The notes beneath the pieces are model-generated. The model saw only the letters and a program-made list of their open reading frames with translations. It was not told the origin of the DNA and did not search any database. Positions 3,486 through 14,434 of a stretch of 49,546 nt of DNA are shown piece by piece. Both the position numbers and the translations under genes were made by a program. The DNA comes from Thermococcus sp. (GTDB lineage Archaea > Methanobacteriota_B > Thermococci > Thermococcales > Thermococcaceae): positions 1 through 49,546 of the forward strand of contig NZ_JACDNS010000015.1 in the NCBI RefSeq assembly GCF_017656495.1, written 5' to 3'. Within the stretch, counting starts at the first letter, position 1; every line of letters begins with the position of its first letter.

Positions 3486-3730
3486 TTCAACATCACCAAA
3501 AGATCGCAAATGTTTAGACGTTAATAAGGCTTTTGCGAAATCTATGTAACATCCAATTAATCTTCCTAGACTAATTGCACTATACATTTGTAAAATTAAA
3601 CTAGCTCATAACCTATGTATCTCAAAAAGTTCAGCAAATTTTTAGGGAAAAATGACCAAATACGTAAATTTTTTTCATTATATTCAAATCTAAACTTGAA
3701 TTTTGTAATGTTTTACATGCCAGTAAACGC

Positions 3731-3740
3731 AAAATATATA
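3731..3740 (+). promoter_or_regulatory. TATA box of the aminomutase gene
   Basis: AAAATATATA; transcription is expected to begin near 3763. This makes the leader about 87 nt, long for this order, where many mRNAs have leaders under 20 nt. Confidence 0.65.
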
Positions 3741-3773
3741 ACATCACACATATTCACTAACATCTGTAAAACC

Positions 3774-3813
3774 GCCTCAATGATGTGATATGTACAATGA
3801 TGATCTGAGAGGC
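3774..3813 (+). promoter_or_regulatory. Kink-turn-like (box C/D-like) motif in the aminomutase leader
   Basis: GCCTC (3774-3778) can pair with GAGGC (3809-3813). Next to this stem is a three-nt bulge AAT (3779-3781), then GA (3782-3783) facing GA (3807-3808) as tandem sheared pairs, then U opposite U and G opposite C. The two strands read as box C (ATGATGT) and box D (CTGA). This fits the kink-turn consensus bound by archaeal L7Ae. The upper stem is weak, so this is a candidate only. Confidence 0.45.
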
Positions 3814-3837
3814 ATTAATGCCCATATATGGGCATAG
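3790..3837 (+). CDS. Candidate upstream ORF (15 codons) in the aminomutase leader
   Basis: ATG to TAG encodes MYNDDLRGINAHIWA and stops 12 nt before the aminomutase ATG, with the stop overlapping the ribosome binding site AGAGGTGAT (3836-3844). Translation of this ORF would run through the kink-turn-like element and the palindrome, so it could couple translation to leader folding. There is no strong ribosome binding site of its own (only GATGTGAT upstream). It may be chance. Confidence 0.25.
   Translation: MYNDDLRGINAHIWA
3818..3835. repeat. 18-bp perfect palindrome before the aminomutase ribosome binding site
   Basis: ATGCCCATATATGGGCAT is a perfect inverted repeat directly before AGAGGTGAT. 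As DNA it could be a dimeric regulator site well inside the transcribed region; as RNA it could form a short hairpin beside the ribosome binding site. Confidence 0.6.
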
Positions 3838-3849
3838 AGGTGATACAAT

Positions 3850-5763
3850 ATGGAGAAACAAATGGAAAGTGCAATTTCAACATTCAATGTTGAAGAATCC
3901 CCCTGGGGTCTAAAGCAGGGTGTTAATTATGAAGATTTTTTAAAGATCTTTGAACCTCTTCCCGAAATTAAAGAAATCCTGGTCACCAGTGAAACCGTTG
4001 AAGAGGCCAGAGAAAAGTTGAGAAAGTTTGCTGAAGACTTGCTATGGAAGTACAAGAATGGTGAATTCAAAGTTGACGCTATGGACAGATGGCTTGCCAT
4101 TGAGGCAATAAATGTATTCCTGAACATAATCTCCGAATATGGTGAAAAAGCTGCTGGATTCTCAACTCTCGAATACCTCTGGAAGGCAACAAAAGGTGAT
4201 AAGAAGGTTCTAAGCATCATCACAGAGGGCTTCATGGAGGAGTTTAAGCACCTCTTCAAAGCTATGGCTGGTGTGACCGGATACTCAAAAGGCTGGCTTG
4301 GACCAAAACTCGAAGCTGCTGGTGTTAAATTCGTTGATTTTAGCAAAATTAAAGGAAGAAAAGCTGCCCTTATGAGATCAGAATACCTTGACAAGGTGTG
4401 GGAATACATAAAAGGATACCTCAAGAAGTACCCAAGTGGTCTTGATAAACACATCATCGAAAAGAGAAAGAAGCAGAGAGAAAAGCTAATGGAATACTGG
4501 GGTATAACAGAAGATGAATGGTTTGATTATAGATGGCAGTTCTCTCACGTGTTAAAGAGAGAGAAAGGTCTTGAAACCCTTAGAGAGCTAAATGAACTTG
4601 GAATAGTTAAAGTTCCAGAAGAGGATCTAAAACAAGTGGAAATTGCTGTAAAATACAGCATTCCCTGGGGTATAACTCCATACTACTTACACCTCTGGGA
4701 CTTTGAAAACCCATACAAAGAAGACAGACATGTAAGAAGACAAGTTATGCCACCCACATGGTATGTTTCAAACATGCTCCAGCACAGGGAAGATAGGGAA
4801 TACTACTTTGACTTCATGGGTGAGCACGACACTTCGCCAATTGACCTTGTTACAAGGAGATATGTTACGATAGCAATTCTCAAAGCTTACGATACATGCC
4901 CACAAATATGTGTTTACTGTCAGAGAAACTGGGAAGTTCTTGAGCCATTCATGGCAGGCTCATTCCCAGGATGGGACAAAATTGAAGCAGCAATAGAGTG
5001 GTTTGCTGAGCATGAATCGATGCTTGACGTCCTCATTACTGGTGGAGACCCCTTAGCTCTAAGTGACAAGATAATTGACAAGATTATGAGTAGACTTTCA
5101 GAATTCGATCATGTTGTTAACATCAGATGGGGAAGCAGGATCTTCGTGACAGTTCCAATGAGAATCACCGACAACTTAGCAGAAATTCTTGGAAGCTACA
5201 TTGAGCCAGGAAAGAGAAACGTCTCAATTTCAACTCACGTAGAGACTGCTTATGAAGTAACACCTGAAATGGCTGAGGCAACATATAAGATTAGGAGGCA
5301 AGGAATTTACATCTACAACCAGCTTGTTTACCAGAGAAATGTTAGCAGAAGATTTGAAAATGTCGCATTGAGAATTGCATTAAGAAAGGTCGGCATTGAT
5401 CCATATTACACATTCTATCCAAAGGGTAAGATTGAGCAGAAAGACTACCTCGTCCCAATTGCAAGGGTTGTCCAAGAAAGAAAAGAGGAAGCAAGATTAT
5501 TACCTGGACAATTTAGAACAGATGAACCTGTCTTTAATGTCCCAAGAATGGGTAAAAACCACCTAAGAGCATGGCAAGACAGAGAATTAGTCGGAATCAG
5601 ACCAGATGGAAGCAGAATCTATCTCATGCACCCATGGGAGAAGGGTATCAGTGAAACTAAGCTTTATACATACCCAGATGTTCCAATCAAGGAGTATCTC
5701 GAATACCTTGAGAGTATCGGAGAAGATCCCAATGACTACTGGACAATCTGGTACTACTACTGA
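3850..5763 (+). CDS. Lysine 2,3-aminomutase-like radical SAM protein (long form)
   Basis: 637 residues. The radical SAM cluster motif CxxxCxxC is at residues 350-357 (CPQICVYC), followed by GGDPLALSD near 398, as in KamA/EpmB aminomutases. These use a 4Fe-4S cluster, SAM and PLP to move an amino group from alpha to beta carbon. The segment FNVPRMGKN near the C-terminus resembles the region carrying the PLP lysine, but it is not the canonical PGGGGK, so the substrate (lysine, glutamate or other) is not fixed. The first ~330 residues form a long, charged, helical extension absent from the ~400-residue bacterial enzymes. The start ATG at 3850 follows AGAGGTGATACAAT. It is transcribed alone, upstream of a TRAP transporter with its own promoter. 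Confidence 0.85.
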   Translation: MEKQMESAISTFNVEESPWGLKQGVNYEDFLKIFEPLPEIKEILVTSETVEEAREKLRKFAEDLLWKYKNGEFKVDAMDRWLAIEAINVFLNIISEYGEKAAGFSTLEYLWKATKGDKKVLSIITEGFMEEFKHLFKAMAGVTGYSKGWLGPKLEAAGVKFVDFSKIKGRKAALMRSEYLDKVWEYIKGYLKKYPSGLDKHIIEKRKKQREKLMEYWGITEDEWFDYRWQFSHVLKREKGLETLRELNELGIVKVPEEDLKQVEIAVKYSIPWGITPYYLHLWDFENPYKEDRHVRRQVMPPTWYVSNMLQHREDREYYFDFMGEHDTSPIDLVTRRYVTIAILKAYDTCPQICVYCQRNWEVLEPFMAGSFPGWDKIEAAIEWFAEHESMLDVLITGGDPLALSDKIIDKIMSRLSEFDHVVNIRWGSRIFVTVPMRITDNLAEILGSYIEPGKRNVSISTHVETAYEVTPEMAEATYKIRRQGIYIYNQLVYQRNVSRRFENVALRIALRKVGIDPYYTFYPKGKIEQKDYLVPIARVVQERKEEARLLPGQFRTDEPVFNVPRMGKNHLRAWQDRELVGIRPDGSRIYLMHPWEKGISETKLYTYPDVPIKEYLEYLESIGEDPNDYWTIWYYY

Positions 5764-5827
5764 AAAATTTCGCCCTTTCACCCTTTCATTTGTTTACTTG
5801 TATGTAAATCCTCCAAAAGAACAAAAA

Positions 5828-5835
5828 ATATATAA
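5828..5835 (+). promoter_or_regulatory. TATA box of the TAXI-TRAP operon
   Basis: AATATATA, about 65 nt after the aminomutase stop. The predicted start is near 5858, so the leader (5858-5901) would contain the inverted repeat at 5866-5880. Confidence 0.6.
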
Positions 5836-5865
5836 TGTTTAAGTTTGTAAATATTTAAGATGTTG

Positions 5866-5880
5866 GGGGACATAGTCCCC
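5866..5880. repeat. Inverted repeat at the TRAP operon transcription start
   Basis: GGGGAC-ATA-GTCCCC, a 6-bp perfect inverted repeat with 3-nt spacer, about 8 to 22 nt after the predicted start. In this position a bound repressor would block initiation or early elongation; alternatively the RNA forms a small hairpin upstream of the ribosome binding site GAGGTGG (5889-5895). Confidence 0.5.
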
Positions 5881-5901
5881 ACTTCCATGAGGTGGCCAAA
5901 A

Positions 5902-6948
5902 ATGAGAAAGTGGAAAGCTTTAGGTGTAGTTTTTGTTTTAGTGTTGGCTTTAGTTGCTGCTGGATGTACCCAAAAAGAAACTGCAACAGGTACCGCAACC
6001 CCAACAAGCACTGGCATTGTACAAAAGAACGAAGAAGGAAAGTATGAGATAACAATTTATACCGGCTCTGGTCCGGGTAGCGTCTATTTTGCTATTGGTT
6101 CAATGCTTGCAAAAGTTATAAACAAAAAGAGCGACCTAATTGCTGCTAAGGCTGTTACAAGCGGTGCAAGTGTTGCTAACGCCAAGGCTATTGCAAAAGG
6201 TGAAGCCCAGGTAGCAATTATACAGAACGACGTAACCTGGTACGCCTGGGAAGGAAAATACCAATTTGAGGGTAACCCAATAAAGGTCCTCAGAGGTATT
6301 GGTACCCTTTATCCAGAGCCAGTCCAAATTGTCGTAAGAGCTGACAGTGACATTAAGACCCTCCAAGACTTAGCTGGTAAGAAGGTTGTCGTTGGTGCTG
6401 CTGGAAGTGGATGTGCTGCAACAGCTGAAAGAATCTTAAAGGCAGCTGGAGTCTGGGACAAAATCGAGCCAGTTTACCAGACCTTCGAAGAGGCAGCACA
6501 GAGCTTAGTTCTTGGGCAAGTCGATGCTGAGTTCACAGTTATTGCTTACCCAGCACCAGCTATTGACCAGATTGCAGTCAAAGTTCCAGTGAGATTAATC
6601 CCAGTTCCAGATGACGTTATAAAGAAACTCCACGACCAAGGATATCCATTCTATGTTAAGGTAATAATTCCAGCTGGCACCTACAAGGGAATGACCGAAG
6701 ACACACAAACAGTAGCTGTTAAGTCAACCCTTGTTGTCCACAAAGACCTTCCAGATGAAGTCGTTTATGAGATTACCAAGATTCTCTATGAAAACATCGA
6801 TGAACTAGCTAAGGCACACCAAGTTGCAAAGCAGATTGACATGAAACATGCATTTGAGGGTCTCATGGTCCCACTCCACCCAGGAGCAATCAAGTACTAT
6901 GAAGACCATGGCATAACTGTCCCAGATGAGTTAAAGCCCAAGGAATGA
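5902..6948 (+). CDS. TRAP transporter solute receptor, TAXI family lipoprotein
   Basis: 348-residue extracytoplasmic binding protein. It begins with a lipoprotein-like signal peptide (MRKWKALGVV..., LVAAGC with the lipobox cysteine about residue 22), then a Thr-rich linker, then the TAXI fold (TGSGPGSVYFAIGSMLAKVIN; later KKVVVGAAGSGCAATAERIL). It captures a ligand, probably a dicarboxylate or amino acid; the substrate is not readable from sequence. The ATG at 5902 is chosen because GAGGTGG lies 6 nt before it; two earlier in-frame ATGs have no site. First gene of a three-gene TAXI-TRAP operon. Confidence 0.93.
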   Translation: MRKWKALGVVFVLVLALVAAGCTQKETATGTATPTSTGIVQKNEEGKYEITIYTGSGPGSVYFAIGSMLAKVINKKSDLIAAKAVTSGASVANAKAIAKGEAQVAIIQNDVTWYAWEGKYQFEGNPIKVLRGIGTLYPEPVQIVVRADSDIKTLQDLAGKKVVVGAAGSGCAATAERILKAAGVWDKIEPVYQTFEEAAQSLVLGQVDAEFTVIAYPAPAIDQIAVKVPVRLIPVPDDVIKKLHDQGYPFYVKVIIPAGTYKGMTEDTQTVAVKSTLVVHKDLPDEVVYEITKILYENIDELAKAHQVAKQIDMKHAFEGLMVPLHPGAIKYYEDHGITVPDELKPKE

Positions 6949-6962
6949 AGGGGTGAAATTTT

Positions 6963-7409
6963 TTGAACAAATCTTTTCTTTTTTTCTTGCTTCTCATTGT
7001 ATTGTTTTTTCCCGTATCTGCGATTAGAATAGGATTCAATGAAAATGTGTGTTATTACCCCCTTGGCTCAAATTCTACCCTTGAGATTGATTACACTCAC
7101 AGTGTTTCATTAACTAAAGTTATAGACATATATCGGGTTTCAAAGGATGGTATTTATGCTCTCCAAGAAAGATGGCAGGAATTCCTTGCAGGACAACCTA
7201 CAGATTTCGATTATCGAGCCGGTAAATTCTATGTAAAGAACCTAAACACATTTCTTGGAAAATCATGGGAATATTGGTTTATCCCAGTTAACAATGTCAC
7301 CGTAAAAATTGATGAAAAAGTTGTGTTTGTTCAGCCTGAAGAAGAAGGAATCATGAAAATTGAGGTTAAGAAAGTCCCCATTCTATTGATAATAAGTAGG
7401 AGGTGTTAA
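6963..7409 (+). CDS. DUF1850 family protein, TAXI-TRAP accessory
   Basis: 148 residues with an N-terminal signal peptide or anchor (about residues 1-20) and a small beta-rich domain containing the family hallmark YTHSVSLTKVIDIYRV. DUF1850 proteins are recurrently encoded beside or fused to TAXI-TRAP systems; their role is unknown. The start is TTG at 6963, supported by GGGGTGAAA about 8 nt upstream and by the absence of an early ATG. It lies between receptor and permease, and its end overlaps the binding-site region of the permease gene. Confidence 0.8.
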   Translation: MNKSFLFFLLLIVLFFPVSAIRIGFNENVCYYPLGSNSTLEIDYTHSVSLTKVIDIYRVSKDGIYALQERWQEFLAGQPTDFDYRAGKFYVKNLNTFLGKSWEYWFIPVNNVTVKIDEKVVFVQPEEEGIMKIEVKKVPILLIISRRC

Positions 7410-7411
7410 TT

Positions 7412-9703
7412 ATGGGAGAGGAGCTTGAAAAAATTGAGAAAAAAATTGTGCTAGAAAAGACAAGAACACTGCCCCCAAAGTTAGAAAACATTGTAAAAGC
7501 CGCAGCAATACTCATTGGTATCTTTGAAATCCTATTTATATTCAACTTTACTTTTTCGGTGTATTCCTTGTTTGATAAGTTGGGTATCAGAATAGAAGCT
7601 CTCAAGCTGGACTTCCAAGATCAACAAGTAATGGCATTTGTGCTAGGTATGATATTTGTCATAGCATTCCTCAGATATCCAATAATGAAGAAGGACAAAT
7701 ATCTCAAAAAGGTACAGCCCATAGACTATATCCTAATAATCCTCGGACTAGCAGCAGCTCTTTATAAGTTCTGGCGATGGCCAACTTACATGGTTTACTA
7801 CGATGTCAATCAAACTGACGTTATATTTGGTTTCTTGGCTATAATCCTAGTCTTAGAGGCTACAAGAAGAGCAATCGGGTGGATTTTGCCAACAATAGTT
7901 ACAGTATTCTTGCTTTATGGAATTAAAGATGCCGGATTCAATTGGACTCGAATAGCCCAATATCTTTATCTCGATCAAGGTATCTTCGGCATTCCTTTCT
8001 ATGTTATGACGATTTATGTCTTTGCATTCGTGTTCTTCGGTGCATTCCTGCTAAAAATTGGAGTGAGCGACTACATCACAGAGTTCATGATATCAATATT
8101 TGGACCTAGACCAGGTGGTCCAGCAAAGTCAGCAGTTATTTCAAGTGGTTTAATGGGAACAGTCAGCGGAAGCTCAGTTGCCAATGTTTTAACAACTGGA
8201 ACATTCACAATTCCGCTGATGAAAAAAGCTGGTTATCCTCCAGAAATAGCCGGTGCTGTTGAGCCTGTTGCCTCAACAGGAGGTCAACTGATGCCTCCAG
8301 TTATGGGTGCAGCAGCATTCATTATGGCTCAGTTTTTAGGCGTCCCATATAACAAGCTGATTATTGCGGCAGTATTGCCAGCATTGATTTACTATTCAGG
8401 AGTTTACCTTTTCATAGATCTTGAGACAAAGCGCTTAGGTTTGAAGGGAATGCCAAGAGACCAGTTCAAGCCCGTCAGATACTTCCTAAGGAAGCTGTAC
8501 ATACTGCTACCAATTGTTGTAATTACCGTTGCGTTAGTATGGGGAATTGCTCCACACATTGCAGCAGTTTCTTCATTAGGCATTGCAATCTGGGTTGCAT
8601 GGATTTCAAAAGACGAAATTCCTGGACATGAGCAGCTTTATGTTGCAACAGTCCTTATCACAACCCTCCTGATGTTTACAGGGAGGGAGATAGCAAAACC
8701 TCTCGGCATAATATTGTTGCTACTCGGCCTAATTCTCATAATTATGGCAGTTGCAACGGACAAAGTGCACTTCAATGAAAAATTCTACATCAGCATGCTG
8801 TTTATCTTCCTCGTGGCTCTTGGAAAGTTCCTTTACATGAGAAAAGAGGAAATCCTCTTGATGAGCGGTGTCTTCGGAATAATATTCTCTCTCATAGTTG
8901 GATACAAATCTAAGACAGAAGGCGGTAAAGCAATGTATTCAGCAACTTACGAGTCAATGATAAGCGCTGGTAAAACAAGCACAACGGTTATGCTCGCTGC
9001 AGCAAGTGCAGGTTTGATTCAGGGTGTTCTTACAATGACAGGGCTGGTTACATCTCTCGGATACAAGCTTGTTGATCTGGCAGGAGGAAATCTGCTGTTG
9101 CTCTTAATGATGGCAATGATATTCAGCCTCATTCTTGGTATGGGTGTACCAACGACAGCCAATTATGTCATTACATCATTAGTAGCAGCTCCAGCAGTCT
9201 TTAACGCTGTAGCAAACAATCCAGTTTACTCTGCATCAGTTCCAGGCTATGCAACGCCAATTGCCCTCCTAGCAGCTCACTTCTTCGTGTTCTACTTTGG
9301 TATACTTGCAGACTTGACACCCCCAGTTGCTTTAGCGGCCTATGCGGGTTCGGCATTGGCTGGTGGTGACTTCTGGAAGACGGCAACTAATTCAGTTAAA
9401 TACGCTCTAGCTGGTTATGTCGGACCATACATATACTTCACTCATCCAGAAATGTTCCTCATTACAGTTCAGCAATGGACTCCCGCGGTTGCACTTAGGA
9501 TACTCTATTACTTCATAGCAACAATACTCATCATGTACCTCTTAGCAATAGCAATTACAGGTTATTACAAGAAGCCAATAAGGAAAGAGATAAGAGTTAT
9601 ATTCGGTGCATTAGGACTTGCTGGGGCAACACTCCATCCAATTCTAGTAGCCTTAGTAGTGCTTTCACTTATAGGAATTGTGATATATGCGAGAAAATCT
9701 TAG
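7412..9703 (+). CDS. TRAP transporter fused permease (DctQ-DctM), TAXI type
   Basis: 763-residue polytopic membrane protein. After a short charged N-terminus there are about four helices corresponding to the small (Q) subunit, then a large M-type domain with many transmembrane helices. It carries the TRAP motifs SAVISSGLMGTVSGSSVANV and MGMGVPTTANYVITSLVAAP (split here for length), typical of 4TM/12TM fusion permeases driven by an ion gradient. Start ATG 7412 follows GGAGGTG (7399-7405). It ends only 6 bp before the convergent mini-gene on the other strand, so the two transcripts must overlap or share terminators. Confidence 0.93.
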   Translation: MGEELEKIEKKIVLEKTRTLPPKLENIVKAAAILIGIFEILFIFNFTFSVYSLFDKLGIRIEALKLDFQDQQVMAFVLGMIFVIAFLRYPIMKKDKYLKKVQPIDYILIILGLAAALYKFWRWPTYMVYYDVNQTDVIFGFLAIILVLEATRRAIGWILPTIVTVFLLYGIKDAGFNWTRIAQYLYLDQGIFGIPFYVMTIYVFAFVFFGAFLLKIGVSDYITEFMISIFGPRPGGPAKSAVISSGLMGTVSGSSVANVLTTGTFTIPLMKKAGYPPEIAGAVEPVASTGGQLMPPVMGAAAFIMAQFLGVPYNKLIIAAVLPALIYYSGVYLFIDLETKRLGLKGMPRDQFKPVRYFLRKLYILLPIVVITVALVWGIAPHIAAVSSLGIAIWVAWISKDEIPGHEQLYVATVLITTLLMFTGREIAKPLGIILLLLGLILIIMAVATDKVHFNEKFYISMLFIFLVALGKFLYMRKEEILLMSGVFGIIFSLIVGYKSKTEGGKAMYSATYESMISAGKTSTTVMLAAASAGLIQGVLTMTGLVTSLGYKLVDLAGGNLLLLLMMAMIFSLILGMGVPTTANYVITSLVAAPAVFNAVANNPVYSASVPGYATPIALLAAHFFVFYFGILADLTPPVALAAYAGSALAGGDFWKTATNSVKYALAGYVGPYIYFTHPEMFLITVQQWTPAVALRILYYFIATILIMYLLAIAITGYYKKPIRKEIRVIFGALGLAGATLHPILVALVVLSLIGIVIYARKS

Positions 9704-14260: not shown

Positions 14261-14434
14261 TTTCATCCCACAATAGAGTTAAGGATATGAGAGTATATAG
14301 ATTTTTGGAATATCAGCATTGGGGAAATCTCATCACAACTCAGACGGCCCCGTATTCATCATTCAGTAGGGCTTTTAACTATTGACATTAATAAATGTTG
14401 ATGGTTGATAAAAAATTAATTTCAGGTGAATGCT

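Follow-up and report, generated by a model that had tools for sequence, protein, structure and literature searches.

A conserved kink-turn in the leader of a Thermococcus aminomutase gene, a possible translational switch

Introduction

Most of the known archaeal leader kink-turns (k-turns) belong to genes of the translation and guide-RNP machinery, where they act as OFF switches. Archaeal leader k-turns that are bound by L7Ae have been described (PMC5539422, PMC3124441), and every k-turn tested folds with this protein (PMC6298567). In the l7ae leader of Archaeoglobus fulgidus the Shine-Dalgarno sequence (SD) is found inside the C-helix of the k-turn, and is hidden by L7Ae (PMC6298567). As of PMC4247193, riboswitch regulation lacked direct support in vivo in the group of the present organism.

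Here we analyse a k-turn in the 5' leader of a kamA-family aminomutase gene in a 49,546-nucleotide stretch of DNA from Thermococcus sp. (the window). A k-turn at such a place seems to be novel, as far as the searched literature and Rfam show. The literature search gave no paper linking Thermococcus with an aminomutase leader, and no Rfam family reached its gathering score over the site, nor did permissive thresholds return anything convincing there.

Results

The operon and its promoters

The following features frame the leader.

3711-3727, no strand assigned: inverted repeat TTTAC-N6-GTAAA directly 5' of the kamA TATA box, candidate transcription-factor operator
3733-3740, plus strand: TATA box AATATATA, sequence and spacing kept in orthologous leaders
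3850-5763, plus strand: kamA-family radical SAM 2,3-aminomutase (TIGR00238, 384 bits)
5793-5808, no strand assigned: second TTTAC-N6-GTAAA, 5' of the TAXI gene, candidate operator
5860-9703, plus strand: TAXI solute-binding protein, small membrane protein and fused TRAP permease, gene order kept in orthologous loci where the contig reaches

The kamA gene heads a TRAP-TAXI operon. Its K525 aligns with D293 of lysine 2,3-aminomutase 2A5H. This Asp binds the side-chain amine of the substrate, and glutamate 2,3-aminomutase has a Lys at the corresponding position. The Lys at the Asp293 position suggests that the enzyme resembles glutamate 2,3-aminomutase and probably acts on an acidic substrate such as glutamate. 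Beta-glutamate serves as an osmolyte in archaea (PMC1224877), but the same review notes early NMR evidence against its formation by an aminomutase in methanogens, and an osmolyte role for the operon is thus only a guess.

The inverted repeat TTTAC-N6-GTAAA stands before both the kamA and the TAXI promoters and is conserved across Thermococcales. It was seen 5' of kamA in 16 of the 16 orthologues listed, with a diverged right half in two of them (L015 and L018), and is likely to be the operator of some transcription factor. Because it precedes both promoters, one transcription factor probably controls the two, and the RNA element would then be an extra layer on kamA.

From the archaeal TATA spacing, transcription is predicted to start at about 3757-3763, near CACTAA, which gives a kamA leader of about 87-93 nt with the k-turn element beginning about 11-17 nt downstream of the predicted 5' end. 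The original prediction had placed the start about 11 nt before the element, which lies within this range, and had called the leader unusually long; it is long, but leaders of 50-300 nt are found on about 20% of T. kodakarensis mRNAs (PMC4247193). The order from the 5' end is k-turn, hairpin 2 (3818-3835), SD GAGGUG (3837-3842) and the ATG at 3850.

Geometry of the k-turn

The elements of the leader RNA are listed below.

3774-3778, plus strand: C-stem 5' strand GCCUC, covaries with 3809-3813; complementary to the SD, and doubles as the anti-SD strand of a competing helix
3779-3781, plus strand: k-turn bulge AAU (N-R-U), third position U in 17/17 leaders
3782-3785, plus strand: box C core GAUG (tandem G·A/A·G, U·U, G-C), GA in 17/17 leaders
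3790-3802, plus strand: apical loop with an invariant CA (3795-3796; 0 tree changes) and a near-invariant AUG (3800-3802; 1 tree change per position)
3805-3808, plus strand: box D CUGA, the non-bulged k-turn strand, GA in 16/17 leaders
3809-3813, plus strand: C-stem 3' strand GAGGC, pairs with GCCTC at 3774-3778
3818-3835, plus strand: hairpin 2, AUGCCCA-UAUA-UGGGCAU, 86% of cells paired, some compensatory and G·U changes
3833-3842, plus strand: CAU-A-GAGGUG, the foot of hairpin 2 plus the SD, partner of 3773-3782, 81% of cells paired over 10 pairs

On inspection of the sequence, GA 3782-3783 lies opposite GA 3807-3808, followed by U3784·U3806 and G3785-C3805. Box C is ATGATGT (3780-3786) and box D is CTGA (3805-3808), with 18 nt between them. 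The layout first proposed for the site, GCCTC/GAGGC flanking AAT, GA/GA, U-U and G-C, with these two boxes, is matched exactly at 3774-3813. The upper stem had been called weak, and in the window copy the NC-helix (U·U, G-C) is so; in relatives it is clear, with GGA/UCC or GGGA/UCCC (the latter for example in L011 and L012). Covariation in this upper helix was not significant in the 17-leader alignment. The 3-nt bulge, tandem G·A/A·G and canonical C-helix, which are the standard k-turn criteria, are all present in the window and in 11 of 16 relatives.

A scan for the pattern stem, N-RUGAUG, 8-40 nt, CUGA, stem found a single site in the whole window, both strands included. First-order Markov sequences are expected to hold 0.08 such sites with stems of at least 5 bp, and 0.54 with stems of at least 3 bp, so the motif taken alone is only mildly unlikely by chance.

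Conservation and covariation

Homologues of the 3850-5763 protein were found in 23 of 94 Thermococcaceae genomes, and each of the 19 kamA orthologues of at least 86% identity from these genomes has the leader element in the same position. L005 and L006 nearly duplicate L004 and were counted together with it. A covariance model (R1) derived from 17 distinct leaders matches those 19 leaders, although the scores of its own leaders are not independent evidence. Nothing else was matched at E<0.01, so that no regulon of further copies appeared at this threshold; this absence is informative, but the many-genome search ran with stricter filters. Six weaker matches (L091-L096, E 0.014-0.08) were considered as extra copies and rejected, as they are without the k-turn core.

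A 79%-identical paralogue clade (L020-L023 and L025) has neither the element nor, within the 1.5-kb flanks, the TRAP genes. Just 5' of position 1501 the members of this clade carry CCTC stretches upstream of GGAGGTGATCACC, possibly a different anti-SD arrangement. Another structure was observed just 5' of the kamA-like genes (about 5800-6000) of L033 (DHVE2) and L062 (a Thermoplasmata MAG), where both leaders have, close to their predicted 5' end, a common 7-bp hairpin, GCAGAGC...GCTCTGC, that is unlike the Thermococcus element.

The leaders are about 60% identical on average, as compared to 51% at CDS third positions. The counts listed above for the two GA and the bulge U refer to the 17 distinct leaders of alignment A2. 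Automatic consensus folding of A2 returned no structure, and therefore the structure was assigned by hand and then tested against controls. Double changes were found at 5 of the 8 C-stem pairs; one core pair, for example, is U-A in seven leaders and C-G in another seven, and the outer pair occurs as A-U, G-C and C-G. Pairing over the whole structure was 71%, and at most 48% once the 3' partner was slid. In a tree-aware null, which keeps the tree and the substitutions per branch but moves the substitutions between columns, the C-stem values were reached in 0-2 of 500 simulations. Thus the covariation of the lower stem exceeds slid, shuffled and tree-aware controls alike. The apical CA...AUG is as conserved as the k-turn core (0-1 tree changes), and -1b:-1n is C:G in 14 of the 17 leaders, the window included. 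A pseudoknot between an apical UACA and an upstream UGUA was tried and rejected; it is present in the genus of the window and absent from L011, L012 and L014.

Covariation across homologous leaders had been proposed as the check on the element, and in most homologues the GA/GA and the stem are indeed kept with compensation, while in five the k-turn is lost or altered. L019 has UAA in place of box D, in L016 neither side of the U·U pair remains and a newly acquired AU could close the bulge, and L015, L017 and L018 have weak C-stems. L017 comes from a genome with both kamA copies (G038); besides its decayed C-stem it has a GC-rich hairpin, CCGCC-CGGAA-GGCGG, adjoining the SD.

The same position in 19/19 orthologues, GA/GA in 16/17 leaders and compensatory C-stem changes beyond the tree-aware null show that the k-turn is genuine, selected and leader-specific. 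A k-turn under selection in the aminomutase leader makes a cis-regulatory role likely, which agrees with the control of this gene that was first suggested.

A competing helix with the Shine-Dalgarno sequence

The segment 3773-3782 (CGCCUC-A-AUG), made up of the 5' strand of the C-stem and the AUG of box C, is complementary to CAU-N-SD at 3833-3842 in most relatives. Over its 10 pairs, 81% of cells are paired as compared to 29-52% when slid. Column shuffles had a mean of 74%, and none out of 500 was as high as the observed value; a rate-weighted tree-aware null reached it in 6 of 500 simulations for pairing and in 1 of 500 for double changes. In 13 of 17 leaders the duplex has an energy of -9 to -16 kcal/mol (-12.4 in the window), and in 12 of 17 no other upstream stretch pairs better with the SD region than the box C/C-stem strand does. 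Furthermore, the CAU is retained in L013 and L019 although the foot of hairpin 2 is not complementary there.

Other results were less clear. The core alternative pairs alone gave no excess of double changes in the tree-aware test, shuffles of single leaders often pair equally well with the SD region, and swapping partners between species changed the energy from -10.5 to -9.5 kcal/mol (p 0.05-0.1). Hairpin 2 itself shows fewer independent double changes than the C-stem. The anti-SD pairing may in part be a by-product, as the k-turn stem constrains CCUC, the ribosome GAGG and hairpin 2 the CAU. The predicted energies of the two folds differ by no more than about 5 kcal/mol at 85 °C, and in most leaders the predictions make them similarly stable over 70-85 °C, but thermodynamic models are unreliable at 85 °C. 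Both helices appear to be conserved in complementarity, the competing helix less certainly than that of the k-turn. As both use the strand 3773-3782, the k-turn and the masking of the SD would be mutually exclusive.

Discussion

Our preferred explanation is a kamA leader that controls translation in cis, as a switch based on the k-turn, a tentative proposal to which we give a little less than an even chance. In one state, 3774-3813 would fold as a k-turn, either bound by L7Ae or stabilised by ions, with hairpin 2 beside it; the SD at 3837-3842 would be single-stranded and kamA translated. In the other state the k-turn would be unformed, and 3773-3782 would pair with the foot of hairpin 2 and the SD (3833-3842), which would block translation. 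If folding of the k-turn excludes masking of the SD, then binding of the k-turn should free the SD and turn the gene on. We infer the presence of both states in cells, the identity of L7Ae as the binder and the ON sign. L7Ae would be the obvious binder, because genes of its family are present in the genome of the window and all tested k-turns fold with it. The nearly invariant CA...AUG of the apical loop is explained by neither fold, and suggests a further contact. A more complete version is that of an archaeal k-turn ON switch, in which the 5' strand of the k-turn covers the SD until folding, triggered by the availability of L7Ae, by intracellular K+/Mg2+ or by a metabolite contacting the loop, sets it free and an operon for a beta-amino acid (possibly an osmolyte) is switched on. 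Taken with all these parts it is rather doubtful.

The opposite sign is also conceivable, with L7Ae on the k-turn lowering kamA translation, in the manner of the l7ae, nop5 and similar leaders, by blocking ribosome loading or by stabilising a closed structure. There are precedents in Sulfolobus acidocaldarius and A. fulgidus (PMC5539422, PMC6298567), and k-turn-like sites in the NOP56 and Cbf5 transcripts of T. kodakarensis (PMC4247193). However, the SD starts at 3837, outside the C-helix and 23 nt past its end at 3813, with hairpin 2 between, and folding of the k-turn takes away the strand that is able to mask the SD. The repression by SD masking that was originally drawn from the l7ae leaders does not fit this arrangement, and the competing helix suggests the reverse sign. 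We consider a repressed leader unlikely.

The leader could instead be a riboswitch responding to an ion or a metabolite, in which the k-turn is an architectural bend, the apical loop contacts the ligand and L7Ae is incidental. The C:G at -1b:-1n in 14 of 17 leaders is a state that permits detectable ion-driven folding, but the box C/D-like U·U at 3b:3n and G-C at 4b:4n weaken such folding (PMC5689011). An apical loop as conserved as the k-turn core, the confinement of the element to one operon and the possible tie of the gene to an osmolyte-type product all speak for a ligand, whereas the aptamer would be very small and the ligand is hypothetical. This makes the riboswitch quite unlikely.

It is also possible to see in the leader a stabilising 5' structure that has no regulatory role, where hairpin 2 holds the SD open and an L7Ae-capped stem-loop shields the mRNA against 5'-3' decay. 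The short distance from the predicted 5' end and a strong hairpin immediately before the SD agree with this, but the restriction to one operon, the conserved apical loop and the anti-SD complementarity are left unexplained, and we find it improbable.

A box C/D guide sRNA within the leader, or processed from it, is nearly excluded: RUGAUG and CUGA do stand at the stem ends, and the best sub-threshold Rfam match over the site is a C/D snoRNA (E=3.5), but the C-D spacing is only 18 nt, there are no D'/C' boxes or guide, no Rfam match at gathering score was obtained and the C'-like ATGATGA of the window copy is not conserved, which also speaks against the free L7Ae-bound RNA of the original prediction. 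A box C/D sRNA, sR35, is found elsewhere in the window (14311-14366, minus strand; Rfam 62.3 bits). Very improbable, too, is control by an upstream AUG, where the near-invariant loop AUG would open a tiny reading frame (AUG-NNC-UGA in about half of the leaders) that tunes initiation, as frame and length vary by species (2 codons, 12-15 codons, overlapping or in-frame).

If the k-turn switch is real, k-turn control would reach into metabolism through a conserved element of opposite sign confined to a single metabolic operon, and the leader would offer a compact archaeal RNA switch amenable to genetic tests.

The closest likeness is to the l7ae leaders of S. acidocaldarius and A. fulgidus (PMC5539422, PMC6298567), which likewise have a k-turn stem-loop in the 5' leader that is weak without protein at growth temperature. 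There L7Ae turns translation off and the SD is part of the k-turn or adjoins it, whereas in the kamA leader the SD is outside, the opposite sign is predicted and the target is a metabolic gene. The -1b:-1n pair is mostly C:G in the kamA leaders, and in none of six l7ae-type leaders. The sRkB and sRkC RNAs of Pyrococcus abyssi (PMC3124441) are also Thermococcales leader RNAs with k-turns, and for them L7Ae binding has been shown, but they are about 216 nt long, have two k-turns and belong to another gene; they are set apart from the kamA leader here by their description, not by sequence. In the close relative T. kodakarensis the NOP56 and Cbf5 transcripts likewise have predicted L7Ae sites (PMC4247193), but these mRNAs encode guide-RNP proteins and kamA does not. 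The SAM-I and lysine riboswitches, finally, also have a k-turn in the stem of a structured leader; unlike them, the kamA leader has neither a known aptamer core nor an Rfam match.
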